Of a DNA stretch of 64,000 nt, positions 40,536 through 64,000 are shown piece after piece (the stretch's first letter is position 1; each line of letters opens with the position of its first letter). The notes under the pieces were generated by a model. It did no database searches. It worked only from the letters and a program-made list of their open reading frames with translations, and had not been told where the DNA came from. Position numbers and translations under genes: made by a program. The stretch lies in contig NZ_JAEHJZ010000025.1 of NCBI RefSeq assembly GCF_016469035.1, positions 41,512 to 105,511 on the forward strand, given 5' to 3'. Origin of the DNA: Gelidibacter salicanalis (lineage in GTDB: Bacteria > Bacteroidota > Bacteroidia > Flavobacteriales > Flavobacteriaceae).

Positions 40536-40690
40536 TCCTCGAGGCTCTGCCTCGGGGTTTCCGTTGATCCCGATAATTATCGGGAGTCATTCCCGTGAAA
40601 ACGGGAATCTAAATACAGAATTTTGGTTTTTGACCTTTTTCAGGTCAAAATGAAACCAGCGAAACACCTCTATGGCTCTGCCTCGAGGAT
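40536..40690. repeat. Hairpin-rich dispersed repeat between the GH144-type genes
   Basis: A cluster of inverted repeats: TCCTCGAGG and GGCTCTGCCTCG elements at 40536-40554, a perfect 18-bp palindrome (TCCCGATAA/TTATCGGGA) at 40568-40585, ATTCCCGT/ACGGGAAT with GAAA loop at 40589-40608, and TTTTGACCT/AGGTCAAAA at 40628-40650. GGCTCTGCCTCG recurs at 40674-40685. The make-up resembles non-coding repeats scattered through flavobacterial genomes. A small reading frame across it is not credible. Confidence 0.75.
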
Positions 40691-40710
40691 AGTTGGTTTC
40701 AAAAAATTCT

Positions 40711-42078
40711 TTATTTCTGATACTCGAACCCCAGTTTATCCAAACCGTGTTGTACATCGTTGTTTTGCATGAACAAATCCCATAACATTCCTGATCTATA
40801 ATTTTCAATCATTATGGGAATAGGGCCTTGATCTATTGCCAAATACCGCTGAACATACCATTTTTTATCTAAACTAAACGCATCATAAGGTCCATATTTC
40901 CCAATCAAGGAATCTTGTTTTTTATATAAATAATGAAGCATTTTCATGCTCTCCTTAGGTGTATAAGGAAAGGAAGCTAAGGCGGCCGTTGGTGAAATGA
41001 CCCCTACATCATTTCCTGGCCTGTGACTGGTATATCCCTTTATGGAGTAACTGGAGGTCATACCCCATAAACTATCGCCATAACCTTTAAAGTTCTTCGG
41101 ATTATCAACAGCATAGGCATGGTGTATTTTGGATTGATTTTGCACCAATTCCCAATAATCTGCATATTGATCTTTTAATCCTTTTGGGTTTAACCCTAAA
41201 TACGAATAATGCGCCCAAAATAAAGGGCCCACATCAGTGTCATCATTTTCGTAATAATTCAGCACTAAGGGGATGTCATATAAAGAATCTTTAGATACAA
41301 TATTACCGTTGAGCGCCCAGCCTTGATCATAGACCTCTTTAGAAATAGGATATGTAGGTGAGGCTGCTGCTAGCACATACATCACCAAGCATTCATTATA
41401 GCCTCCAACAGGGAAATTCATGTCCCAATTATCGGTGGGAGACCAATGCCAATACAGGACGTTTTCTCCTTTAGTGTACCAGTCCCATTCTACCCCTCGC
41501 CATAGCTGATCGATTTTAGCGGCAAGTTGTTTTTCTTTGGCGTTGCCATTTTTGAAATACTCTTTAACGGTCAACATGCCTTGGATTAAAAATGCAGTCT
41601 CCACCAAATCACCACCTGTATCTTTTTTGCTGAAAGGCACTACTTTGCCAGTTTCTCCATTAAGCCAATGTGGCCACGCGCCGTGAAAGCGATCGGCTTT
41701 TTCGAGAAAATCTACCATTTTCACAAATCGGCCAACGGCATCTTCCCTAGTAATATAACCTCTTTTGATCCCTACCAGAAGCGCCATAAAACCAAAACCA
41801 GAACCACCGGTGGTAACCGTGTTTTTAGGACTGGTAGGGTAAACATCATCCATATGGAGACGTTCTCTTGCCAACCCGGAGTTGGGTTCAGCACCCTCCC
41901 AGAAGTAGTTGAAAGTTTGTTTTTGGATGGTGTCCAACAAGGGGTCATCAACAATTATCAGCCCTGAATAACTTTCAGAAGGCACCGTAATCTGCTTTGT
42001 TTTTGTTGAATTGCAACTAGAAAAAAACACTACAAATAACATCCAAAAAACTACAATTTTGGTAGATGTTTTATTCAT
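40711..42078 (-). CDS. Glucoamylase-like/GH144-type glucanase, lipoprotein (copy B)
   Basis: A 455-aa lipoprotein (FFSSC, Cys22) parallel to copy A over its full length, with identical hallmark segments: 'TTGGSGFGFMALLVGIKRGY', 'RFHGAWPHWLNGETGKVVPFSKKDTGGDLVETAFLIQGML', 'NVLYWHWSPTDNWDMNFPVGGYNECLVMYVLAAASP' and 'AIDQGPIPIMIENYRSGMLWDLFMQNNDVQHGLDKLGFEY'. The two copies are certainly a tandem duplication, though well diverged in the non-core parts. Having two may mean endo plus exo action or two chain lengths. The gene follows susD by 254 bases. Catalytic residues are not assigned here because I cannot align it to a structure. Confidence 0.9.
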   Translation of the reverse strand: MNKTSTKIVVFWMLFVVFFSSCNSTKTKQITVPSESYSGLIIVDDPLLDTIQKQTFNYFWEGAEPNSGLARERLHMDDVYPTSPKNTVTTGGSGFGFMALLVGIKRGYITREDAVGRFVKMVDFLEKADRFHGAWPHWLNGETGKVVPFSKKDTGGDLVETAFLIQGMLTVKEYFKNGNAKEKQLAAKIDQLWRGVEWDWYTKGENVLYWHWSPTDNWDMNFPVGGYNECLVMYVLAAASPTYPISKEVYDQGWALNGNIVSKDSLYDIPLVLNYYENDDTDVGPLFWAHYSYLGLNPKGLKDQYADYWELVQNQSKIHHAYAVDNPKNFKGYGDSLWGMTSSYSIKGYTSHRPGNDVGVISPTAALASFPYTPKESMKMLHYLYKKQDSLIGKYGPYDAFSLDKKWYVQRYLAIDQGPIPIMIENYRSGMLWDLFMQNNDVQHGLDKLGFEYQK

Positions 42079-47102: not shown

Positions 47103-49919
47103 TTATTTAAAATTTAACAAATAATCTGTTAAATTTTTGTCTGAATCAAGCGCCAATTTACCCTTTAATCGATATCTCTGAGTCTCTACACCCCTGATGG
47201 AGATATTTAATAATGGTGCAATCTCTTTGGTAGATAAGTTCATTTTGATGTAGGCACAAATTCGTAAATCCTTAGCGTTCAATTCGGGATGTTTGTGTTT
47301 TAATTGATGAAAGAATTCTTCATGGACTTGGTTGAAATTGTACTCAAACACTTTCCATTCATCTTTATGGCTTATGGATGTGTCTATTTTTTTAATAAGA
47401 TTTTTATAAGAGTAATAATTTTCAAAAGAATTTTTATGCACTAATAGTTCCTTTTTAAGTTCTAAAAGTATTTCATTCTTTTTGACCAAAGACATGGCAG
47501 TATTGGCAAGTTGCTTACTTTTTAATTTGACTTCATTTTTTAAAGATTCATTTTTGAGCTCAACAATGCGTCTCTCATTTTCAATGGATTTTTCTTTAAG
47601 GACTTCCTTTTGCTCCTCTTCAAACCTCAAATGCAAGAGGCGTTGCTCTTTATCAATTTTTTTACGGTGCAGGATATAAAACACGACTGACGTTAACACC
47701 AATAAAACTCCAAAGAGTACGTAACCTGGTGTAGATCTGTACCAAGGAGGCAGTACCTTGACCATCAACCTACGAGAAGTTGATGCTTTTCCCAGGTGGT
47801 TTGATGTTCTGAAAAGAAACTCATGATCGCCGTAATTTATATTTGAAACTTCCAACCTATCATTTTCTATTTTGTACCAATGCATGGAATCCGTTGACCT
47901 CACAGCATATTCAAAATAATGATCTTTAGATTTTGGCGAGGTCAATGAAATGCTAAACGTTTGAAAATTATTTTTTAGTTCAACGGTTGTGACGGAATCT
48001 ATGGCGATCCGTTGCTTGTTGATGAGTATACTTTCAAAATAGGGCTCATGCAATGCACTTGACTGTGAATTTAATGTTTTATCAAATAACATAAATCCAT
48101 TATTCAAACTCAATGCATATATGGAGTCTGACAGTTGTGAAATATTTTCATAGCCTACTATAAGGCGCTGCTTAAAATACTTGTCGCCGAGCGACGCTTT
48201 AAAACCATCATCTGGAAAGGTTTTAAAATTGATTGTATTTTTATTTTTGACCGCTAAAGTGCTGATATCATTTTCAGAAATGATGTAGGAATTCTTTCCA
48301 AAACTTTTATTCAATAACGGATACGAAACAATCGTATCCAACAGTGGCTCATATTTTTGCCAGCCCTCATTAGTTTTGATACAGATATCATTCTTAAGTT
48401 CATATACACGGACATTATACGGCGACCAGAGTCCTTTCTTTTCATAATTTTTGATCTCCAAAATGGAATCATATGAACTGTTGAACTTAACTTTGTAGAA
48501 GCCTTTATAGGCATGCGCTACCCAAGCAGTATAGGCATCTTCAAATACCAAAAACCGGCTGGGAATAGTAGTTTGTCCTAAATGCTTTACCGTCCACCCC
48601 GTAGATTCTTTTTTAAATCTGACCAATCCAGCATAAGTGCCTTGAATGTAGGTCCTTGGTGTTCCGATCACCTTTTTAATGACCCAGCCACCTGTGTGTG
48701 AGGAAATAAGCTCTAGTTGTTTGTCTTTTACAAGGTAAGTTCCGTTATTATGCCCACAAAAAAGATCGCCTTCAATTTCTTTCAAATCCCAAACCTGCCC
48801 TTGGGAGCCGTCGATAAATTGCAGTATATTATCAGCATCTAGGTAATAAAGACCAGTATTGCTGCCTATATAAACGGTGTTTTTATATTGGATGACATCA
48901 TAAACGGCGCCCAAATTTCCTGAAACATCATTATAAAATAGATATGGACTGCTCAAATCTGCCGATGCCAATCCATTATCAAGACCTAACCAAAGCTGGT
49001 TGTCATCATCCACATATTGAGACAGCACCGTATTGTTAATAAGTCCATTTTCTTTATGAATATGGAAAAGTAATTTCCCTTTTGAATTGGTAATATATAT
49101 ACCGTTCTTTATAGTTCCAAAGATCATATTTCCATTTCCCATTTCAGAAAACGCATTGAGTTGTTGTTCTTTTATAATAGTGCATATTTCAGCTTTAAAC
49201 GGGCTAAGAACGCCGTTTTCATATATAAATATGCCTTGTAAGGAAGTGGTAATGAATAGCTGTTCCTTCTTTTTGGTAATAGAGATTATTTTAGCTTCAA
49301 CTAAATCCTTATGATCAATAAACGGAATTAGTTCTCCATCATCAAAAGTAAAAATACCATTCTTTAAGGTTGAAATATATAAGGTTCCATCTATAACATC
49401 ACAAGAAAGCACCGTTGAAGGAGGCGTTGCTTTCTTAATTTCACCATCCTTATAGATATAAATGTTCAAAAACGACCTAAAGATAATGGCGTCTTCAATT
49501 TTTATAATCTGCCAGAACTCTTCACTTAAAAATTCTTTTGGATTCAAGTTTTCACTTAGTGAGGTATATTTTAGTTGTCCAAATTTACTGCGTTCCCAAA
49601 ATCCAAACTCTTCATAGGAGCCTGTATAAATTTTAGTGTCAATTGCTAGAACGGAGCGTATTGTGGTCTTATTGGGAAGCGTACTCAAGGTCCACCTAAA
49701 ACTATCATACTCCAACAAACCCTTGTTATTCGCTACATACAAACGACCATCACTTGCCTTAGAAATACCCCAATTTTGGTTTCCTGCATTGTATTGCGAC
49801 AGATCATAATTTTGAAAATAAGGTGCATATTGCGCCTCTGCGATGTTTTGAAAAAGCAAACACCCGAGCAGTGCAGCCCAGATTTTAGAAGTAAGTGTTA
49901 AAGACATTCTTATTTTCAT
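47103..49919 (-). CDS. Membrane sensor-regulator: beta-propeller, Y_Y_Y domain, LuxR-type HTH (PUL 2)
   Basis: A 938-aa one-protein sensor and DNA-binding regulator, built like the PUL 1 regulator. Signal peptide about 1-29; propeller repeats through about residue 620 ('VLSQYVDDDNQLWLGLDNGLASADL'); Y_Y_Y domain ('YFEYAVRSTDSMHWYKIENDRLEVSNINYGDHEFLFRTSN'); membrane helix about 733-750; coiled coil about 755-830; C-terminal helix-turn-helix ('LSTKEIAPLLNISIRGVETQRYRLKGKL', about 895-922). No kinase or receiver domain. ATG start with a good signal peptide. It lies upstream of susC 2 on the same strand, separated by the TGACGTA cluster. Confidence 0.94.
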   Translation of the reverse strand: MKIRMSLTLTSKIWAALLGCLLFQNIAEAQYAPYFQNYDLSQYNAGNQNWGISKASDGRLYVANNKGLLEYDSFRWTLSTLPNKTTIRSVLAIDTKIYTGSYEEFGFWERSKFGQLKYTSLSENLNPKEFLSEEFWQIIKIEDAIIFRSFLNIYIYKDGEIKKATPPSTVLSCDVIDGTLYISTLKNGIFTFDDGELIPFIDHKDLVEAKIISITKKKEQLFITTSLQGIFIYENGVLSPFKAEICTIIKEQQLNAFSEMGNGNMIFGTIKNGIYITNSKGKLLFHIHKENGLINNTVLSQYVDDDNQLWLGLDNGLASADLSSPYLFYNDVSGNLGAVYDVIQYKNTVYIGSNTGLYYLDADNILQFIDGSQGQVWDLKEIEGDLFCGHNNGTYLVKDKQLELISSHTGGWVIKKVIGTPRTYIQGTYAGLVRFKKESTGWTVKHLGQTTIPSRFLVFEDAYTAWVAHAYKGFYKVKFNSSYDSILEIKNYEKKGLWSPYNVRVYELKNDICIKTNEGWQKYEPLLDTIVSYPLLNKSFGKNSYIISENDISTLAVKNKNTINFKTFPDDGFKASLGDKYFKQRLIVGYENISQLSDSIYALSLNNGFMLFDKTLNSQSSALHEPYFESILINKQRIAIDSVTTVELKNNFQTFSISLTSPKSKDHYFEYAVRSTDSMHWYKIENDRLEVSNINYGDHEFLFRTSNHLGKASTSRRLMVKVLPPWYRSTPGYVLFGVLLVLTSVVFYILHRKKIDKEQRLLHLRFEEEQKEVLKEKSIENERRIVELKNESLKNEVKLKSKQLANTAMSLVKKNEILLELKKELLVHKNSFENYYSYKNLIKKIDTSISHKDEWKVFEYNFNQVHEEFFHQLKHKHPELNAKDLRICAYIKMNLSTKEIAPLLNISIRGVETQRYRLKGKLALDSDKNLTDYLLNFK

Positions 49920-54547: not shown

Positions 54548-57061
54548 TTAATCCTTCAAATTGAGGGTACGCTCTAAAGTCTCAAACGTATAGCCACGCT
54601 CTTTCAAAATTGTAATAAGATTATCCAACGTTTTATAAAACTTATCGGTCCGATCAGGATGTGTGCCCAAATGTGAGAGTAACATAAAACCATTCATGCC
54701 ATACGTTTCTTCAAAGGTCAAAACAGAATCCCTGATGTCTTCTGTACTTCTATAATTCTTCATGTCAGGTGTGGTATAATCTGCATGGGACAACGTGCCT
54801 TTACTGTAATTGATCATTGTAATACCCATTTGATCAGTCCATTGGGTGATAATATTGTCGTTCCATTCATAAGGTGGTAAAAAATAGGGGGCTTGCTCTT
54901 TTTGAATGCCTAATTTTTCCATTTCGGAATAATTGGCTTTGAGATCGTTTTGAAATTCTTCCTGAGTGACTAAACGTTTTTTGTCTTCTGTCCACTCGTT
55001 ATAAAGTAAATGTTGGTCAGAATGTGCACCAAGATAATGGCCGGCTTTTTTTGCTTGTTCCACAAATGGGGTGAAGTCTTTATTTCTATAAAAATTCCCC
55101 GTTAAAAAGAACGATCCTTTAATACCATGCCTTTCAAGAATACGCAAGATATCCTCTGCCCCATCAGCATATTCATCCGCAGAGAATAGTAAGCTGATTC
55201 TTTTATGATATGTGCTGCCTCTAACAATGGCGCCAGTATCATCATAAGTAGAGCTCTTTTTCTGATGTCCTTTTGCCCTACTCTCATTTTCAAGAGCTGC
55301 AAGGTAGTACACCAAAGACGCTGTCCCGTCCATAGTAGGCTCGTTGGTGGCATAACTCCCCACATCGTCTTGATACACCACCAAATCCGATTGAAACCTT
55401 GCGTACTCATCCGCATTATGAAGCTCCACCCCTATCAAACTGTTGGCGATAGAAGCATAAACTGGACCGTCAATGAGCCCACCATTTGTTGGATAACCTT
55501 CCAAAAGCGTTAGGGAAGAATGCGGATCAACCGGTGTATCTCCAAAATTTGGAAGTCCTACAATCATTGAGGTTCCCCAAATATTACAGCCAAACAGCCA
55601 ATCGCGCAGCGCGGCTTCCATTTCTAAAAACGTTGCATCCCCCGTCAGATTATAATACAATTTACTTTGGGTGACGGCAGCGGTTAAGAAGTTATTGGAA
55701 CACCACACAAATGGAATTCCTATATAAAACGGATTATCCTTACCGCGTTCGTGTAACATTTGTAAGCCTTCTTGATAATAGGAAACGACTTCCGTTTTTT
55801 CTTCGGAAGCGAGCGCGGTAGCCAATTCATGATGTCCGGCATTTAAAAACGGATAATATTGATAATGGAGGATGGTGTCTCGACCAATCCAAGGGGTGAT
55901 TTTTTCTTCAGCCGCATATTTTAAGGCGCTCTTTTTATAGGCCTCATTGCCGGTAAGTTTATATAGACTGCTTGCCGCCAACTCCATATCATCCACCCAA
56001 TTGTCTTCTTCATAAAAATAAGGCGAACCTCCTGGTGCAGTTTGGCTCACGCCGGGATGCACTTCGCCATAAGAAAAGGCATCTTCGGCACGCTGATATA
56101 AATCTTTAGAATATTCAGGATAAAAATTGCTTAACACTTCCGCGCCAATCGCAAACGCTGACGCAAATTTTCCTGCAGTAGAAGCCGCCCCTGTAGATCT
56201 ATTTTTATATTTTAACACGCCTTGTTGTTCACCACTTGCCAAATACACGGGACGTCCTTTGTGATTAGGGTCGTAAACCACCGTGTCCTTATTTGGCAAA
56301 CGGTATCCTGCGTGATCACGATCATCAGCAATTTGGTTATAATATTCTGTTGTAGATGGATTCATTCTTTTCAGCCAATCCATTCCAAATTTGGCCTCAT
56401 CAATCACATCAGGGATACCATTCGGACCCGGTAACCCAGCTACATCATAAGCATCACCAAAGGCTTCTGGATTATCGCGATAGGCAAAAAGCAATTGAAA
56501 CACAGCATTGGCCGAAGTGGCGGTATATTGTAAATAATCTGAAGCATCATGCCATCCACCAGTCGCATCCATGCGCTCTCCTATTCTGTCAGGATTGTAA
56601 AGGATATAACCATCATCCAAATGACAGGAGGCGGTTAAAAAGGGATTGTAGCCACAACGTTGTTGACGCATATATTCTAAAAGAAAATCGGCGGTATGGT
56701 CATACACATCAGCATTGATCCGAAATTCGGGCGATTTCACCCCATTGGCAGAAAGATAGTATGTGCCTAGCGTATTGAAGGTACTAAAATTTAAGCGGTA
56801 CGACGATTTAAAAGGACCGTAAGCACCTTTAGCTTCTGGTGTTTTTGAGCTAAACACGACTTTATCTGTTTGTGCATCGTGTAAAGTGAACGCATTAATT
56901 GTTTCGGACTCCAGCGCACCGAAAACAGCAACTTTTATGGCGTTTGGTGTGTATCCCAATTGATTGATTCGGATTACCGCGTTTTCTTCAGTTTGCAACG
57001 CCAGTGCGCTAGCAAGTGTAGAAAATAGGATCAGACTAAGAAAGAGGAATATTTTTTTCAT
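54548..57061 (-). CDS. GH9 glycosidase fused to a polysaccharide deacetylase (NodB-like) domain
   Basis: An 837-aa secreted protein. Signal peptide about 1-22; Ig-like CelD_N domain about 25-115 ('VIRINQLGYTPNAIKVAVFG'); GH9 (alpha/alpha)6 domain about 120-592 with Asp172 and Asp175 in 'GGWHDASDY' as base region and Glu574 in 'ATNEPTMDGTASLVY' as proton donor. A C-terminal NodB-like domain (about 618-837) keeps the H-S-x-x-H metal motif (His680, His684) and 'LLSHLGTHP', but the usual TFDDG motif is replaced by 'FSADEYADG' and RxPY by 'LPPYEW'. GH9 includes endoglucanases but also exo-glucosaminidases. The amino-sugar genes upstream make a chitosan- or peptidoglycan-derived substrate more likely than cellulose. 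The 367-base gap before it means it may be transcribed separately. Confidence 0.9.
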   Translation of the reverse strand: MKKIFLFLSLILFSTLASALALQTEENAVIRINQLGYTPNAIKVAVFGALESETINAFTLHDAQTDKVVFSSKTPEAKGAYGPFKSSYRLNFSTFNTLGTYYLSANGVKSPEFRINADVYDHTADFLLEYMRQQRCGYNPFLTASCHLDDGYILYNPDRIGERMDATGGWHDASDYLQYTATSANAVFQLLFAYRDNPEAFGDAYDVAGLPGPNGIPDVIDEAKFGMDWLKRMNPSTTEYYNQIADDRDHAGYRLPNKDTVVYDPNHKGRPVYLASGEQQGVLKYKNRSTGAASTAGKFASAFAIGAEVLSNFYPEYSKDLYQRAEDAFSYGEVHPGVSQTAPGGSPYFYEEDNWVDDMELAASSLYKLTGNEAYKKSALKYAAEEKITPWIGRDTILHYQYYPFLNAGHHELATALASEEKTEVVSYYQEGLQMLHERGKDNPFYIGIPFVWCSNNFLTAAVTQSKLYYNLTGDATFLEMEAALRDWLFGCNIWGTSMIVGLPNFGDTPVDPHSSLTLLEGYPTNGGLIDGPVYASIANSLIGVELHNADEYARFQSDLVVYQDDVGSYATNEPTMDGTASLVYYLAALENESRAKGHQKKSSTYDDTGAIVRGSTYHKRISLLFSADEYADGAEDILRILERHGIKGSFFLTGNFYRNKDFTPFVEQAKKAGHYLGAHSDQHLLYNEWTEDKKRLVTQEEFQNDLKANYSEMEKLGIQKEQAPYFLPPYEWNDNIITQWTDQMGITMINYSKGTLSHADYTTPDMKNYRSTEDIRDSVLTFEETYGMNGFMLLSHLGTHPDRTDKFYKTLDNLITILKERGYTFETLERTLNLKD

Positions 57062-57428
57062 CTGTTTATTTTATTTTTTTTACTGTACGTCCGTATTTTG
57101 TCATATCAGTGAAAAATCTGCGAACATGTGCGAAATCAGCGGGAAATAAAAACATGCGAATGCGGAAGTTATACCGCAGATTGCGCAGATTCACGCCGAA
57201 TAAAAACGAATATTTGTTTTTGATGACTAAATCTAAAAATTACTATAACGTGAAAATTTATAGTGTTATGATATTTTCTGGACAATCAATTTTTTTTAAA
57301 AAAAGGGATGCTACGACGTCTAAGATCATATCTTGTTAGCAGTGGCATCCATTGTTGAAAAGATACATATTCCGACACCATTAATTGAATTATAAGCTAA
57401 AGTACTGAAACTACGCTCTTCAGTTCGA
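57062..57428. other. Intergenic stretch (367 bp) with repeat
   Basis: Contains the repeat element at 57110-57195. The remaining bases are AT-rich. A 76-codon frame across the repeat has no sign of being a gene. Confidence 0.5.
57110..57195. repeat. Dispersed repeat with AATCTGCG/CGCAGATT arms
   Basis: AATCTGCG at 57115-57122 is inverted as CGCAGATT at 57175-57182 and again at 57184-57191. Sequences of this 'aaatctgcg...cgcagatt' kind are frequent non-coding repeats in Bacteroidota. It separates the GH9 gene from the NamZ-type gene. Confidence 0.6.
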
Positions 57429-58643
57429 TTAGTTATACAACAAGTACTTTGCTCTAGTTTCTTTAAAAGATTCCAATCCAGGCTGCCAAGTTGCTTTAAT
57501 ATCTTCTATAGACATGCCTTGTTCTATTTGGGCCTTTAATTTGGTAGTGCCGGCTAATTTCTTAAAAAAGTCATTAAAAAATGTTTTCTTATCTGAAGTT
57601 GCAGTATAGGCTTCAATTAACCAATCTAAACGGATTTCGTTAAGCGGTTCTACGGTTCTTAAATCTTTTCCGTAGCAGACTTTGCCTTCATGTTTTGGTG
57701 TTTTCGCTCCAAAATTTGGTTGTGGGGTAAAGCTGAAATCGAATTGGTCTTTTGGTAAATAAGGTGCTCCAAAAATTTGAAATTGCATTTCCGTACCACG
57801 TCCACAGCTGACCGTTGTACCTTCAAAAAAGCACACGCTAGGATATAGATTAATCGACTTTGCGTTGGGAAGGTTTGGTGATGGTAAAATAGGTAAGTCG
57901 TATTCAGAAGCATAGGTGTAATTCTGAAGTGGCACCACAGTAAGATCGCATTGAATGCCATTGTCCAACCATTTTTCGCCATTGATCATCTTTCCGTATT
58001 CGCCAATAGTCATCCCATATACAATTGGCACCGGATGCATGCCCACGAAACTCTTCACATCGCTTTCCAAAATAGGACCATCAATATAATGTCCGTTAGG
58101 ATTCGGTCGGTCAAGAACAATGACTGGAATATTGAGTTCAGCCGCAATTTCCATCACATAGTGTAAGGTAGAAATATAGGTGTAAAAACGCACCCCAACA
58201 TCCTGTACATCAAACAACATCACATCAATATTCTCTAAAAACTCAGCCGGTGGTTTTCTGTTTTTTCCATACAATGAAAATACAGGAAGTCCGGTTTTTT
58301 CATCCACACCATCTTCAATATATTCACCAGCATCAGCTGTGCCACGGAAGCCATGTTCTGGCGCAAACACGGTGGTCACGTTAACATTCATAGCGATTAA
58401 GGAATCCACAATGTGCGTATGCGTTTCTTCACTCGCATCTTTAAAAATAACACTGGTTTGATTGGCTACAACACCAACCTTTTTCCCTTCTAATAATTTG
58501 AGGTAGTTTTCTGTTTGGTTAGCGCCTGTTATGATTGCTGGGCTTTCAACATTAGGCACCACACCGTCATCTTTAGCTTGATTTTTTTTAGGCGTAGAAT
58601 TACAAGCTAAAAGCGTCATAAAACATAATAAAAGATATTTCAT
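57429..58643 (-). CDS. namZ: NamZ-type exo-beta-N-acetylmuramidase (DUF1343/GH171), lipoprotein
   Basis: A 404-aa lipoprotein (LLAC, Cys14) of the DUF1343 family, which includes B. subtilis NamZ, an enzyme releasing MurNAc from the non-reducing end of peptidoglycan fragments. Family hallmarks: 'GKKVGVVANQTSV', 'VFAPEHGFRGTADAG' with Glu96, 'MLFDVQDVGVRFYTYISTLHYVM', 'IVLDRPNPNGHYIDGP', 'GMHPVPIVYGMTIGEYGKMIN', 'LPSPNLPNAKSINLYPSVCFFEGT' and 'SCGRGTEMQFQIFGAP'. It lies 69 bases after the NagZ-type gene, as nagZ precedes namZ in Bacillus. The lipidated form should act in the periplasm. A paralogue is at the other end of the cluster. Confidence 0.9.
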   Translation of the reverse strand: MKYLLLCFMTLLACNSTPKKNQAKDDGVVPNVESPAIITGANQTENYLKLLEGKKVGVVANQTSVIFKDASEETHTHIVDSLIAMNVNVTTVFAPEHGFRGTADAGEYIEDGVDEKTGLPVFSLYGKNRKPPAEFLENIDVMLFDVQDVGVRFYTYISTLHYVMEIAAELNIPVIVLDRPNPNGHYIDGPILESDVKSFVGMHPVPIVYGMTIGEYGKMINGEKWLDNGIQCDLTVVPLQNYTYASEYDLPILPSPNLPNAKSINLYPSVCFFEGTTVSCGRGTEMQFQIFGAPYLPKDQFDFSFTPQPNFGAKTPKHEGKVCYGKDLRTVEPLNEIRLDWLIEAYTATSDKKTFFNDFFKKLAGTTKLKAQIEQGMSIEDIKATWQPGLESFKETRAKYLLYN

Positions 58644-58712
58644 AAGTTCTATTTTTTGAATTTGTTAATACTGAATCGAGAGGCTAAATAGCCATTATTT
58701 TTTTTCAAATCA

Positions 58713-60401
58713 TTAAGGATTTACAATTCCTGAATGCACCGGATAGGTTGGTGAAATTGAAGCTGGCAAGGTCCCTTTTGCTTCAGTCTCGCCAAAAATG
58801 ATTTCTGCCGAAACGTTATTGGCTATTACTGAATTTTCGTAAGAAATCACAATACCTTCAAGGTTGTCAAGATTTGTTTCCTTTAAACTGTACTGACTGG
58901 CAAAAACAGTAAGTAGTGTTTGATGCTCTTTTGCGATGGATTCTATCACCTTTTTATCGGCTGCAGAAACAGCATAGGTTAAACGACTATTTTTACGATG
59001 ATACCCAATGATTACCTTATCGTACGCTTTAAGATCTTCCAAAAGAGTGTTAGTAGAAGTGTTAGTAATTTCCGTCACTTCAGCTCTGGATTTCAATTCC
59101 TTTAGAAACGCCTCAGAAGGGCCTTCTCCTAATTTTACAAAGGCAATTTTTTCGTCTCCATTTTTTTTCAACGGCATAAGTTGATCCTCGTTTTTAATGA
59201 CAGTGATGGCATTTCTGATAGCCTCTTCGTACAGATTTGCGTTAACTTCGCCATTCAAGTCTTTGATGAGATGCTTTGTTTCTATAGGCTTATAGTTGTT
59301 CAATCCGGAGTCAAATTTTGCGGCAAGGATTTTCTTTACAGAATAAGCCAAACGCTCCTCTGAAACCTCCTTGGCATCGTAAGCTTCGACTATTTTTGCA
59401 ATGGCTTTTGGTGCGTCTTCAGAAAATAAAAGAACGTCATTTCCTGCTTTAAATGCCGCCAAATCAATATCGCCAGGTTGACCATAATCTGCGGCACCTT
59501 TCATATTTAAAGCATCGGTAAAAATGAGTCCGTCGTAGCCTAATTTTTCTTTCAGGAGTTCCGTGACAATTTTATAGGATAAAGACGACGGTAAGCCCGC
59601 TTGAGGTTCCAAATTCGGTACATTTAAATGCGCTACCATGACGCCGCCAATACCTTTCTTGAACAATTCTTTATAAGGATACAATTCTACCGAATCGATT
59701 CTTTGTTCGGTAAAAGCAACGGTTGGTAATGTTTTGTGAGAATCAGTATCTGTATCGCCATGACCTGGAAAATGTTTGGCAGAACCAATCACGCCCGTAC
59801 TTTCCATGCCTTTGGTAAAGGCCCAAGCTTTTTGGGCGACGTTATACTTTTCTTCTCCGTAAGAGCGGACACCAATCACCGGATTTCTAGAATTTGTATT
59901 GATATCTACTACAGGTGCAAAGTTGATATGAATGCCCATGCGGTTACAATCCTTCCCAATTTGATGGCCTATTTTTTCGAGGATTTTGTTGTTGGTAATT
60001 GCTCCGAGGGTCATGTTATACGGATATCTTGCCGTACTGTCCAAACGCATATTCAAACCCCATTCGCCATCAACACCAATAAACATCGGCACCTTTGATA
60101 AAGCTTGATAGGTATTGGTTTGATTTGCCTGGCGTACTGGTCCGCCCTGAAAAAATATCAGTCCCCCAATTTGATACTCATTTATGAGTTTTTGAATAGA
60201 ATCTGTATGGGCATCAATGCGGTTGGAATAGGCGCTGACCATAAACAACTGTCCTACCTTTTCCTGAAGCGACATTTGATTATACACACTGTCCACCCAA
60301 TGCCCTCTATGATCGACCTCTATAGAACGCTTAGTTGGCGTTTTAGCGCAAGACGCCAACATGAGCATGGCGATACTGACTATCGGTAAAATTTTTTTCA
60401 T
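58713..60401 (-). CDS. nagZ: GH3 NagZ-type beta-N-acetylhexosaminidase, lipoprotein
   Basis: A 562-aa GH3 enzyme with lipobox MLASC (Cys18), so periplasmic rather than cytosolic like E. coli NagZ. The NagZ loop is intact: 'AKHFPGHGDTDTDSHKTLPTV', with the catalytic Asp220-Ser-His222 dyad as acid/base. Nucleophile Asp296 is in 'GLIFTDALNMKG'. Barrel about 30-375; a smaller alpha/beta domain about 385-562, as in two-domain Gram-positive NagZ. It should remove GlcNAc from GlcNAc-MurNAc fragments. It overlaps murQ by 4 bases, so the two are coupled. This loop separates it from the three beta-glucosidase-type GH3 enzymes in the window. Confidence 0.93.
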   Translation of the reverse strand: MKKILPIVSIAMLMLASCAKTPTKRSIEVDHRGHWVDSVYNQMSLQEKVGQLFMVSAYSNRIDAHTDSIQKLINEYQIGGLIFFQGGPVRQANQTNTYQALSKVPMFIGVDGEWGLNMRLDSTARYPYNMTLGAITNNKILEKIGHQIGKDCNRMGIHINFAPVVDINTNSRNPVIGVRSYGEEKYNVAQKAWAFTKGMESTGVIGSAKHFPGHGDTDTDSHKTLPTVAFTEQRIDSVELYPYKELFKKGIGGVMVAHLNVPNLEPQAGLPSSLSYKIVTELLKEKLGYDGLIFTDALNMKGAADYGQPGDIDLAAFKAGNDVLLFSEDAPKAIAKIVEAYDAKEVSEERLAYSVKKILAAKFDSGLNNYKPIETKHLIKDLNGEVNANLYEEAIRNAITVIKNEDQLMPLKKNGDEKIAFVKLGEGPSEAFLKELKSRAEVTEITNTSTNTLLEDLKAYDKVIIGYHRKNSRLTYAVSAADKKVIESIAKEHQTLLTVFASQYSLKETNLDNLEGIVISYENSVIANNVSAEIIFGETEAKGTLPASISPTYPVHSGIVNP

Positions 60402-61219
60402 TTTTTATGTAAATTATAGGTGTCAATTGCTTTTCGGATGCTTTTATGCTCGTTTAAAAGTAGTTTTGCAGTGGCTTCATCAACGTGGGTTTCATTCATA
60501 ATCATTTGAACACCTCTGGTCACCAACTTTTTGTTTGACAATTGCATGTCGACCATTTTATTGCCTCTAACCCTTCCCAATTTGATCATCACGGTTGTGG
60601 AAATCATATTTAAGGCGAGTTTCTGGGCAGTTCCTGCTTTCATTCTGGTACTTCCGGTGACAAACTCCGGACCTACCACCAATTCAATAGGAAAGTCTAC
60701 TTCTTGAGACAACGGCGAATCGGCATTACAGGTAATACATCCTGTAATGATACCTTGAGCTCTTGCTACTCTTACACCACCAATCACATACGGTGTTGTA
60801 CCAGACGCTGCAATCCCCACAAGTGCATCCTTTGAGGTGATGTTGTGTTTTTTTAGATCTTCCCATGCTAATTCAGTATCATCCTCAGCATTTTCAACTG
60901 CCTTTCTAAGAGCACCATCGCCTCCCGCTATAATACCAACTACCATCGTATCTGGCACGCCATAGGTAGGTGGACATTCTGAAGCATCCAACACGCCCAA
61001 ACGGCCACTAGTGCCTGCACCAATATAAAATAAGCGTCCGCCATCCTTCATTTTAGAATATATGGCATCTACTAAGTTTTCAATTTGTGGAAGGACTTTT
61101 TCAATGGCTTCAGGTACCGTTTTATCTTCGGTATTCATATTTGAGAGCAACTCAAAGGTGTCCATTTTTTCTAGATCATTATAATCCGACGCTTGCTCTG
61201 TGGTTAATTTACGTTCCAT
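60398..61219 (-). CDS. murQ: N-acetylmuramic acid 6-phosphate etherase
   Basis: A 273-aa cytoplasmic SIS-domain lyase converting MurNAc-6-phosphate to GlcNAc-6-phosphate and D-lactate. The phosphosugar site 'YIGAGTSGRLGVLDASECPPTYG' is intact. Glu81 ('DASECPPT') and Glu112 ('ENAEDDTE') are 31 residues apart, the same spacing as the two catalytic glutamates of E. coli MurQ. 'ASGTTPYVIGGVRVARAQG' and 'EFVTGSTRMKAGTAQKLALNMISTTVMIKLG' complete the family. The start is 27 bases after the symporter stop. Slightly short at the C-terminus relative to the E. coli protein. This gene fixes the pathway of the cluster. Confidence 0.98.
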   Translation of the reverse strand: MERKLTTEQASDYNDLEKMDTFELLSNMNTEDKTVPEAIEKVLPQIENLVDAIYSKMKDGGRLFYIGAGTSGRLGVLDASECPPTYGVPDTMVVGIIAGGDGALRKAVENAEDDTELAWEDLKKHNITSKDALVGIAASGTTPYVIGGVRVARAQGIITGCITCNADSPLSQEVDFPIELVVGPEFVTGSTRMKAGTAQKLALNMISTTVMIKLGRVRGNKMVDMQLSNKKLVTRGVQMIMNETHVDEATAKLLLNEHKSIRKAIDTYNLHKK

Positions 61220-61246
61220 AGGATTTGTATTATATTTGCTATTATA

Positions 61247-62707
61247 TTAAGATTTGAGTGGCTTTTTCTTCACAAGTATCAAGCACACAATTGTTAACAA
61301 GGCATTGACAAAAATATTCATGAACCCGAAATCAAAGTTATACCAGTTTATAAAAAAGTAATTTAAAAAGTAGGTTACCAACGGCATTGCAATACATATA
61401 TACGGCACTGCAGCGTCATAAACCTTTACTTTTGTAAAAATACCCAATAGATATAAGCCCAACAAGGGCCCGTAGGTATAACCTGCTACTTTAAATATGG
61501 TTGAAATAACATCGCCTTTACTTTCTGAAAACACCATGATGATGATGAAAATAAACGCTGAGAATCCAAATAACGTCCAATTTTTTAGCTGAATCTTTTT
61601 CTTGGAAGTCTTCGTTTTAATATTTAAAAAATCATGTGTAAATGATGTAGTCAATGCGGTTAAGGCAGAATCGGCGCTGGAAAATGACGCGGCCGTTATT
61701 CCCAGAATAAAACTGATTCCGGCAATCATGCCAAAATGATTTAAAGACAACATTGGGAATAAATTATCAGTATTGATAAAATTGCCGTTCTCCATGTCTA
61801 ATTGAATCCCGAATTTCTCCGCATATAAATAGAGCATGACGCCTAAACCTAAAAATAGAAATTGGGTTACCGCTAAAAAGATACTAAAGGTCAAAATATT
61901 TTTCTGGGCTTCCTTTTTGGTTTTGCAGGTTAAGGTTTTTTGCATCATATTCTGATCCAATCCCACCATAGCGACGGCAATGAGAACCCCTGAAATGAAC
62001 TGCTTGTAAAAGTTGTTCCCCGATTTAAAATCCCAATCAAACACTTTAAAATACTCGTGGTTGGTCACTGAAGTAATGGTTTCCGAAACACTTAAATTAA
62101 GCGATGTTTTAACAACATAAATAGAGATTCCAACCGCTAATAACAAGAAAAAGGTTTGTAACGTGTCTGTCCACACAATGGTCTTAATCCCTGATTTGTT
62201 AGTATATAGCCAGATGAGAACGAGAATAAGGATGACCGTCACAAAAAACGGGATGTTAAAGGCGTCAAAAACGGCATATTGTAAGATTTTTGCGGCAAGC
62301 ATTAAACGCAGGGCCGCGCCAAAAGACTGTGAAATAAGAAAAAACATAGACCCCGTTTTGTAGGTCTTCATCCCAAAACGTGTTTCTAAATAAGTGTAGA
62401 TGGATACCAACTTCAAATCATAATAAATGGGAACCAATACATAGGTAATAAACACATAGCCTACAACATTTCCAAAAACGAACTGTAAATAATAAAAATA
62501 GTTGTTCCCCACCATTCCCGGAATGGATACAAAGGTGACCCCTGATAAAACGGCACCAATCATCCCGAAGGCTACAATTTGCCACGGCGATTTCCTGTCT
62601 CCGGTATAATAAGAGTCCTCACTGGTATTTTTAGAAACGATGTGGGAGATCAGCATCAATACTCCAAAATAGCAGGCTATGATTATTAAAATTAAAGTCG
62701 CGCTCAT
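61247..62707 (-). CDS. Sodium/solute symporter (SSS family), probable amino-sugar importer
   Basis: A 486-aa inner-membrane protein with about 13 helices. SSS signatures seen: 'FGMIGAVLSGVTFVSIPGMVG' in the first core helices, 'YTYLETRFGMKTYKTGSMFFLISQSFGAALRLMLAAKILQYA', and 'ISFILGITAASFSSADSALTALTTSFTHDFL' with the Ser-rich sodium-site segment. It lies directly upstream of murQ, and in Tannerella forsythia a membrane transporter (MurT) next to MurNAc genes imports MurNAc. Import of MurNAc or its disaccharide is therefore likely here, by context. Sialic acid or other sugars are known substrates of related proteins. Confidence 0.93.
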   Translation of the reverse strand: MSATLILIIIACYFGVLMLISHIVSKNTSEDSYYTGDRKSPWQIVAFGMIGAVLSGVTFVSIPGMVGNNYFYYLQFVFGNVVGYVFITYVLVPIYYDLKLVSIYTYLETRFGMKTYKTGSMFFLISQSFGAALRLMLAAKILQYAVFDAFNIPFFVTVILILVLIWLYTNKSGIKTIVWTDTLQTFFLLLAVGISIYVVKTSLNLSVSETITSVTNHEYFKVFDWDFKSGNNFYKQFISGVLIAVAMVGLDQNMMQKTLTCKTKKEAQKNILTFSIFLAVTQFLFLGLGVMLYLYAEKFGIQLDMENGNFINTDNLFPMLSLNHFGMIAGISFILGITAASFSSADSALTALTTSFTHDFLNIKTKTSKKKIQLKNWTLFGFSAFIFIIIMVFSESKGDVISTIFKVAGYTYGPLLGLYLLGIFTKVKVYDAAVPYICIAMPLVTYFLNYFFINWYNFDFGFMNIFVNALLTIVCLILVKKKPLKS

Positions 62708-62775
62708 TTGTGTGGTTAGTTTTTATTTTAATGGGTTGCTATGGTTATTTTTTATTTTGAATCTCCAAAAATACT

Positions 62776-63963
62776 TTAATATATCTTAATGTCTTCGAGT
62801 TGTAATGTATAGTCCTTTAAATCCTCAAATGAATCCAATTCTTCAAGGGATCCATTTTGGGTTACCCAATGTCTTAATGTATCTGTTCCGTTAATAATAT
62901 CAATGGGTTGTTGGGTGTAATTATATTCGTAAGGGGGTGATAACCATTCAAAATCATCACCTAAATAATGGTAGACTTCTCGTAACAAAAATTGACCCAC
63001 GCGCCACGGTTGGTAAAGCGTTCTGTCCGTTGTATGTAATTGAAATCCGCCACAAACTTCATCTTTTTGCTTATGGAATGTGGGCAGAAAAGTGATCGGT
63101 CTTAATGTAAAGCCTTCTAATTTGGACTGCTTGATTTTTTGCGTCAATTGATCCTTATAAAATGAAAATGGTTCAATTTTAGGATGCCCCATAATCTCCA
63201 AGGCCTGCGTAGTCCCTCTACCTTCACTTAAATTCGTGCCTTCAAAAAGGACGATTGCAGGAAATGTTAAAGCACTTTCTACCCTACCCAAATTGGGTGA
63301 TGGCAATAGCCAACGCAATTGTGTATCTTCATAATACATTTCGCGATCCCAATTTCGCATGTTTATGACTTTTAAGTTGGCTTTCTCTTTAGCCCAAAAT
63401 TTCTGGTGCATCAATGCTACTTCTCCAATAGTCATCGCATGCCTTACGGGAATGGGATGCCTTCCTATAAATGACTCAAAATTCAAGTCTAAAATATTGC
63501 CCTCAATGGTAACACCATTTAAAGGATTGGGTCTATCTAAAACAATAATCTCGATTGGTTTATCACTACATTTTTCCAAAAGTAAGGTCAGGGTATAGAT
63601 GTAGGTGTACATTCTGCTCCCTATATCCTGTAAATCGACAAACAGATGGTTCACAGCCTCCAACATGCTATCCGTAGGTACGCGCGTTTCAGAATACAAA
63701 GAATAGACTGGAATGTTGAAATAAGGATGGATCTCATGATCTGTTTCAATCATATTGTCCTGTGCGCTGGTACTAAATCCGTGTTGAGGTCCGAATAGTT
63801 TTACAAATCTTGATCCAAAAAGTTCCTTAAATCTTACAGACGCATGCACTAAGCTAGAATCTACAGATGCATTATGAGCCAATAAGGCCACGTTGCCACG
63901 GAAGGTTTTTTGAAGATTGCCATCCGCCACTAAAACATCCAATCCTAAACTAATTCTTTTCAA
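62776..63963 (-). CDS. NamZ/DUF1343 paralogue without signal peptide
   Basis: A 395-aa DUF1343 protein. Conserved segments: 'FVDLQDIGSRMYTYIYTLTLLLEKC', 'IVLDRPNPLNG', 'GRHPIPVRHAMTIGEVALMHQ', 'WLLPSPNLGRVESALTFPAIVLFEGTNLSEGRGTTQALEIMGHP'. Unlike the lipoprotein paralogue it starts straight into the domain ('KRISLGLDVLVADG'), so it appears cytoplasmic. An in-frame TAG sits at 63967-63969, so no longer reading exists. The start is TTG at 63963 (or the ATT before it), as no ATG fits. The position of Glu96 in the paralogue's 'PEHGF' is Gln60 here ('GPQHGFST'). It may have altered activity or act on imported fragments. It heads the salvage cluster, 68 bases before the symporter. Confidence 0.88.
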   Translation of the reverse strand: MKRISLGLDVLVADGNLQKTFRGNVALLAHNASVDSSLVHASVRFKELFGSRFVKLFGPQHGFSTSAQDNMIETDHEIHPYFNIPVYSLYSETRVPTDSMLEAVNHLFVDLQDIGSRMYTYIYTLTLLLEKCSDKPIEIIVLDRPNPLNGVTIEGNILDLNFESFIGRHPIPVRHAMTIGEVALMHQKFWAKEKANLKVINMRNWDREMYYEDTQLRWLLPSPNLGRVESALTFPAIVLFEGTNLSEGRGTTQALEIMGHPKIEPFSFYKDQLTQKIKQSKLEGFTLRPITFLPTFHKQKDEVCGGFQLHTTDRTLYQPWRVGQFLLREVYHYLGDDFEWLSPPYEYNYTQQPIDIINGTDTLRHWVTQNGSLEELDSFEDLKDYTLQLEDIKIY

Positions 63964-64000
63964 AATCTATGCTTATTTGTTTAAATTAGTAAAACTCAAT

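Follow-up and report, generated by a model that had tools for sequence, protein, structure and literature searches.

A six-gene cluster of Gelidibacter salicanalis as the probable downstream half of a locus for peptidoglycan use

We analyzed a 64,000-nucleotide stretch of DNA (the window) from a contig (C165) of the Flavobacteriaceae bacterium Gelidibacter salicanalis (genome G000), in which six minus-strand genes very likely form the downstream half of a polysaccharide utilization locus (PUL) for peptidoglycan (murein). The evidence from the genomes points to murein-sugar catabolism as the role of the cluster, which probably lets the bacterium degrade the walls of other bacteria, import the sugar that occurs only in such walls and use it as food. 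Peptidoglycan is a large, slowly turned-over marine store of carbon and nitrogen. Peptidoglycan PULs of this kind have been described before (PMC10199937), but two members of the present cluster look unusual.

An earlier interpretation made from the letters of the window (the sequence-only reading) had described, in order on the minus strand, a NamZ paralogue (NamZb), a sodium symporter, MurQ, a NagZ-type lipoprotein, a NamZ lipoprotein (NamZa) and a GH9-deacetylase, with short gaps or overlap up to NamZa. Coordinates, Pfam matches and the MurQ score all agree with this description. The symporter (61247-62707; Pfam SSF; SSS family) has its best match among solved structures in 5nv9, a putative sodium:solute symporter, and is probably an inner-membrane importer of N-acetylmuramic acid (MurNAc) or anhydroMurNAc. 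MurQ (60398-61219), the MurNAc-6-phosphate etherase, carries SIS-type Pfam domains and exceeds the NCBIfam equivalog cut-off (TIGR00274, 342.1 versus 302 bits). The NagZ/YbbD-like glycoside hydrolase family 3 (GH3) lipoprotein (58713-60401; Pfam Glyco_hydro_3; lipobox-like LASC) is a probable exo-beta-N-acetylglucosaminidase, and its KHFPGHGDTDTDSH, KHFPGHGxxxxDSH and TDALNMK segments, in which we take the catalytic residues to lie, align with YbbD. The GH3 and MurQ genes overlap by 4 nt and are separated from their neighbors by gaps of 27 nt (MurQ to SSS) and 69 nt (GH3 to NamZa), with a further 68 nt between SSS and NamZb, and these genes may well be co-expressed. The GH9 gene, 367 nt away from NamZa, is by this distance the loosest member of the cluster.

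The sequence-only reading had proposed gene order across the Flavobacteriaceae as a check, and within the genus the order SSS-MurQ-GH3 proved to be conserved. We compared 199 genomes of the family and 10 of the genus, G000 included, and inspected 20 kb at each genus locus other than that of G000. The SSS-MurQ-GH3 order is present in all ten genus genomes, accompanied by NamZa in nine, a GH9 fused to a carbohydrate esterase family 4 domain (GH9-CE4) in seven, a GH18 in five and NamZb in three (G000 counted). In one of them, G002, the cluster SSS appears as two overlapping open reading frames (ORFs; L040:7758-9240), which reflects either a disrupted gene or a misassembly. At the level of the family, the SSS query recovered 14 copies at 62% identity or more in 13 of the 199 genomes, and 11 of these 14 orthologues have MurQ within 3 kb, an association far from chance. 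A second SSS of about 45-53% identity occurs in most family genomes and lies within 15 kb of MurQ, among the matches listed and read by eye, only in G054 and G134. In a midpoint-rooted tree of 19 SSS rows, the G054 and G134 proteins group with the cluster SSS (support 99/99), and the near-universal paralogue, as well as two copies from Bacteroidales, lies outside this group. The G054 and G134 symporters belong to another murein-type locus, composed of NagP, GH20, MurQ, SusCD, GHL10, SSS, GH9 and an epimerase (L090/L091) and closed in L090 by an NlpC/P60 protein. The widespread SSS paralogue (L092, L093, L094) adjoins yihA, near recR, in one Parabacteroides and one Bacteroides record, and on C392 of G000 it lies beside a RecR-like ORF identified by eye.

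The window contig stops at base 64000, so that nothing further upstream of the cluster could be read from it, but the likely continuation that the sequence-only reading had proposed to inspect was located by homology on another contig, C673. A relative's SusD used as query gave a single match at E<=1e-50 in G000 (C673:74113-75600, 88% identity), and C673 stops about 200 bp past this gene. The last 10.8 kb of C673 encode a divergent DeoR regulator, NagX, SusC and SusD at 87-93% identity to their genus homologues. The last 118 bases of C673 belong to a dispersed repeat that matches the genome 11 times, itself included; 8 of these matches are full-length with at least 96% identity. The contig probably ends beside the cluster because this repeat breaks the assembly. 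A copy of the same repeat, at least 118 bases long, lies at window positions 40595-40712. We infer the join of C673 and C165 from the unbroken DeoR-NagX-SusC-SusD-cluster order found on one contig in the relatives L036-L039 and L041, NagX being missing in L039 and L041. With G000 counted through C673, SusC/SusD are part of the locus in six of the ten genus genomes. A SusC/SusD pair, a regulator and CAZymes, which together constitute the gene criterion for a PUL, are all present when the two contigs are read as one locus across the assembly break.

Genes added to the locus in relatives of other genera fit the products of murein breakdown. Three Lutibacter loci (L098, L112, L141) have AnmK after MurQ, then a dehydrogenase, a 337-residue ORF and GH3, and in the metagenome-assembled genome holding L098 the full order reads TonB receptor-SusD-NamZb-SSS-MurQ-AnmK-dehydrogenase-epimerase-GH3; SSS-MurQ-AnmK is found in G012 as well, and the relatives' AnmK proteins score above the NCBIfam cut-off. 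The 337-residue ORF, scanned in L098, is an Ala-Glu-epimerase-like MR_MLE protein that falls below the cut-off of its best model. The dehydrogenase, an FAD/4Fe-4S protein of the D-2-hydroxyacid type with 971-975 residues in L084, L098 and others (only its N-terminal part is covered in L080 and L081), best matches the NCBIfam model for the D-2-hydroxyglutarate dehydrogenase YdiJ, below cut-off, and may act on the D-lactate released by MurQ. A fusion of glucosamine-6-phosphate (GlcN6P) deaminase with PIG-L, the deaminase above its cut-off, occurs in L045 and L084. A DUF6259-type protein of about 760-790 residues is a candidate murein enzyme; its gene separates SSS from MurQ in L080-L082 and precedes NamZb in L085/L114. 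The GH18 scanned in L039 ends in a type IX secretion system (T9SS) tail. This GH18 also matches GH85 and EndoS-type models, which would suit a PUL for a different hexosamine glycan (chitin, chitosan or N-glycan) with MurQ as a passenger, as would GH9-CE4 and NagX, both appropriate to a glucosamine-containing glycan, and the match of the GH9 part to a cellobiosidase model of NCBIfam, far under cut-off. Against this stands the company of genes in the loci, which hold NamZ and MurQ and which some relatives extend by AnmK and the D-lactate-dehydrogenase-like and Ala-Glu-epimerase-like proteins, none of them known to us to have a role in chitin use; we regard another glycan as very improbable.

For a murein locus, the following route can be proposed. 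SusC and SusD of C673 would carry murein glycan fragments across the outer membrane, GH3 would remove terminal N-acetylglucosamine (GlcNAc) and NamZa terminal MurNAc, and GH9-CE4 may handle de-N-acetylated glucosamine ends, or make and remove them. SSS would take up MurNAc, anhydroMurNAc or a small MurNAc-containing saccharide together with sodium, and a kinase from another part of the genome would yield MurNAc-6-phosphate, AnmK acting on anhydroMurNAc and perhaps a MurK-like ATPase on MurNAc, and from this phosphate MurQ would produce GlcNAc-6-phosphate and D-lactate for central metabolism. NamZb, if active, would work in the cytoplasm.

That a MurNAc kinase must lie outside the cluster had been anticipated by the sequence-only reading. 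Pfam revealed no kinase domain in any of the six cluster proteins, and BLAST found no AnmK- or BadF-like ORF at the other nine loci of the genus or at L182, where unnamed ORFs were only partly scanned. Candidates are encoded elsewhere in the same genome: AnmK on C34 (NF007144, 532.1 bits versus a cut-off of 436), a BadF-type ATPase on C401 and, on C284 (L178), an APH-type sugar kinase with a nucleotidyltransferase as its neighbor. The first two were each matched in all ten genus genomes. The C401 protein is related to solved MurNAc kinases (E 1e-40 to 4e-37), including 8oqw (1e-40) and 8ow9 (2e-40), both taken as MurK by their SPL segment, and somewhat more strongly to 1zxo (6e-47), a conserved hypothetical protein. 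In an alignment read by eye, using the MurK residue numbering of PMC10465942, it keeps the catalytic D95, the sugar ligands N119 and D141, and L135. The hexosamine locus around the APH-type kinase (L178) also holds a GlcN6P deaminase-PIG-L fusion, an oxidoreductase, a NagP-like major facilitator superfamily (MFS) transporter and a LacI-type regulator.

The same enzymes could in principle recycle sugars from turnover of the cell's own wall instead of serving to eat foreign peptidoglycan. In E. coli both MurQ and AnmK take part in recycling, no MurQ besides that of the cluster was found in G000 (E 1e-50), for which reason the cluster may serve recycling too, and four of the ten genus genomes (G002, G004, G006 and G009) have no adjoining SusC/SusD of this type in the 20 kb inspected. 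Recycling in the family, however, evidently needs no such cluster: MurQ was found in 186 of the 199 genomes, whereas SSS at 62% identity or more occurs in only 13. AmpG (TIGR00901) was unmatched in G000 at E 0.001 under conditions that matched the E. coli positive control. With the SusC/SusD genes, the secretion tail of the GH18 in L039 and the D-lactate-dehydrogenase-like enzyme of relatives, these data favor feeding, as the sequence-only reading had suspected, and make recycling in its place unlikely.

Besides the single MurQ and the four genomes devoid of SusC/SusD, several results weigh against a murein-feeding locus. GH3 scores below the NCBIfam NagZ cut-off (NF003740, 159.9 versus 207 bits), the NagX-type protein far under that of its model (161.9 versus 480), and the C401 ATPase under its Pfam cut-off (28.3 versus 31.5 bits). 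This ATPase also departs from MurK, by eye, at six or more pocket positions (S133Q, P134S, T94E, F34E, F35I and I69G), with several differences in the lactyl and N-acetyl pockets. MurQ is absent from the examined flank of three of the 14 SSS orthologues (G156:C1, G103 and G053). The cluster contains neither an amidase nor a lytic transglycosylase and would act only on glycan already free of peptide. Finally, MurK is inside the operon in Tannerella forsythia, according to the papers on that organism cited below, whereas no kinase was found in the present cluster.

Of the two unusual members, the first is NamZb (62776-63963). The sequence-only reading had counted two NamZ-type proteins, and both indeed carry the Pfam domains NamZ_N and NamZ_C, but they are not equivalent. 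NamZa (57429-58643) combines these domains with an export signal (lipobox-like LLAC) and the glutamate of the PEHG motif, and is a candidate GH171-type exo-beta-N-acetylmuramidase. NamZb, a DUF1343 paralogue, keeps the overall NamZ fold, has a TTG start with an in-frame TAG two codons upstream, bears no export signal and reads PQHG in place of PEHG, the glutamate of which is the proposed catalytic residue; for lack of both features, NamZb should not simply be labelled a second exo-muramidase. The glutamine is found in 10/10 NamZb copies retrieved without using the motif and in 7/7 of a synteny set that overlaps them, and the glutamate in 16/16 NamZa/NamZc rows and in the two solved Bacteroides fragilis DUF1343 proteins, BF0371 (4k05) and BF0379 (4jja). 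A search with the patterns AQDNMIE and K[LI]FGPQHG gave PQHG in 79 of 80 NamZb-like ORFs of more than 200 residues, the remaining one being a fragment missing that part; this count is biased by the patterns, and the ten motif-free copies provide the unbiased one. A third NamZ of G000 (L005:7823-9127, C111) is a solitary PEHG lipoprotein divergent from a gene that, read by eye, encodes an FtsX-like permease.

The uniform replacement of the glutamate could mean that NamZb is an inactive pseudoenzyme and that the cluster has one working NamZ only, and NamZb is not universal: it is absent from the 20 kb inspected in seven of the ten genus genomes and unmatched at E 1e-60 in 191 of the 199 family genomes. 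Its conservation, on the other hand, is not the pattern of decay, with 65-83% identity among Flavobacteriaceae rows, 45 invariant columns common with six NamZa/NamZc rows in a 38-row alignment, a full fold and a clade that extends outside Bacteroidota; we therefore hold a pseudoenzyme to be possible although rather doubtful, and NamZb may have a conserved non-catalytic role. Neighbors were tallied only at loci with 5 kb on both sides (36 of 49 on the Flavobacteriia side and 13 of 31 others), the rest being excluded. Among the 36 Flavobacteriia-side loci, 21 have MurQ, 18 SSS, 26 a TonB receptor of either type and 11 GH3, and none of the tallied cluster proteins lies within 5 kb of the PQHG NamZ relative in the 13 Bacteriovoracaceae-type loci with enough flank. 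In two Pfam-scanned loci, L144 and L174, the PQHG relatives are near thymidylate synthase, and in L144 near dihydrofolate reductase too. We met no signal-less PQHG NamZ in the literature as far as our searches covered it, including those directed at NamZ and GH171. Because its glutamine is conserved where other NamZ proteins have glutamate, NamZb offers a sharp test of whether such a replacement within this fold means lost or changed activity.

The second unusual member is the GH9-CE4 fusion (54548-57061; Pfam CelD_N, GH9 and Polysacc_deac_1), a protein with an N terminus resembling a signal peptide by eye and a polysaccharide deacetylase part whose nearest solved structure is PdaA. GH9 was matched at E 1e-60 in 10 of the 199 family genomes: it is fused to CE4 in G000, G001, G103, G142 and G158, stands beside a separate CE4 ORF matching fusion residues 607-833 in G212, G156 and G148, and occurs without CE4 in G054 and G134, between SSS and the epimerase of their murein-type locus. 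The fusion overlaps a HGSNAT/NagX-like gene by 4 nt in G158 and adjoins a gene of GHL10, a family akin to DigH, in G103. Arguing against a murein role, the fused or paired genes outside the genus are not beside MurQ in the 20 kb inspected, and none of the single neighbors scanned, one each in G142, G212 and G156, is a murein gene. A GlcNAc-deacetylase activity on denuded strands is plausible given that E. coli SddA is such an enzyme (PMC12440217). The literature searched, in which no search was aimed at this pair, yielded no murein-active GH9-CE4. If active on murein, GH9-CE4 would add cell-wall glycans to the substrates of a family whose known members are cellulases above all.

Taking both members together, we tentatively propose a picture that has perhaps one chance in a few of holding as a whole. 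NamZb would found a branch of the NamZ fold in the cytoplasm that, no longer having the usual catalytic glutamate, acts in another way on MurNAc-containing molecules, be it by a different cleavage chemistry or as sensor or carrier. Flavobacteriia that eat murein would use this branch, and so, amid unrelated genes, would Bdellovibrionota, a group known for predators. In loci of the same kind, GH9-CE4 would be a new murein-active pair of de-N-acetylase and exo-glucosaminidase, and NagX would re-acetylate the glucosamine so released.

Elsewhere in the window, the ten ORFs scanned between 9659 and 42078 include three GH3 with Fn3, GH97, GH2, a sulfatase and a glucoamylase-like protein, and a 938-residue ORF at 47103-49919 has no Pfam match at 0.001.

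As a locus signature, SSS-MurQ-NamZ allows one to ask which bacteria eat peptidoglycan. In B. subtilis, the set murQRP-amiE-nagZ-namZ relies on uptake by the phosphotransferase system (PTS) permease MurP. MurQ, a NagZ-type GH3 and NamZ are common to this set and to the present cluster, but MurP, MurR and AmiE are missing from the present one (no whole-genome PTS search was made), which has SSS, a second NamZ, GH9-CE4 and SusCD instead. The view of the sequence-only reading that this is a Bacteroidota version of the B. subtilis set stands as regards SSS in the place of the PTS permease, but a closer model than B. subtilis exists. The murTKQ system of Tannerella forsythia, with a scavenging cluster upstream of it (PMC10465942, PMC7670621 and PMC5790795), likewise imports MurNAc independently of a PTS and then employs a kinase and MurQ; its cluster contains ampG, for which G000 has no match, and the species has NamZ1 and NamZ2. 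The likeness of SSS to MurT is one of superfamily name only, MurT being called a sodium symporter in the introduction of PMC5790795 and an MFS protein in its discussion.

The closer model is the murein PUL of Urechidicola, a Flavobacteriaceae symbiont (PMC10199937), compared by description only. The Fig. 5 legend of that paper names no GH9, GH9-CE4 fusion, AnmK or D-lactate dehydrogenase, and the symbiont PUL also lists ampG, ampD, dacA, nhaC and an Ala-Glu epimerase as differences from ours. Like the present locus, it comprises deoR, SusCD, a sodium/iodide-type co-transporter, murQ, nagB, GH3, GH18 and GH171.

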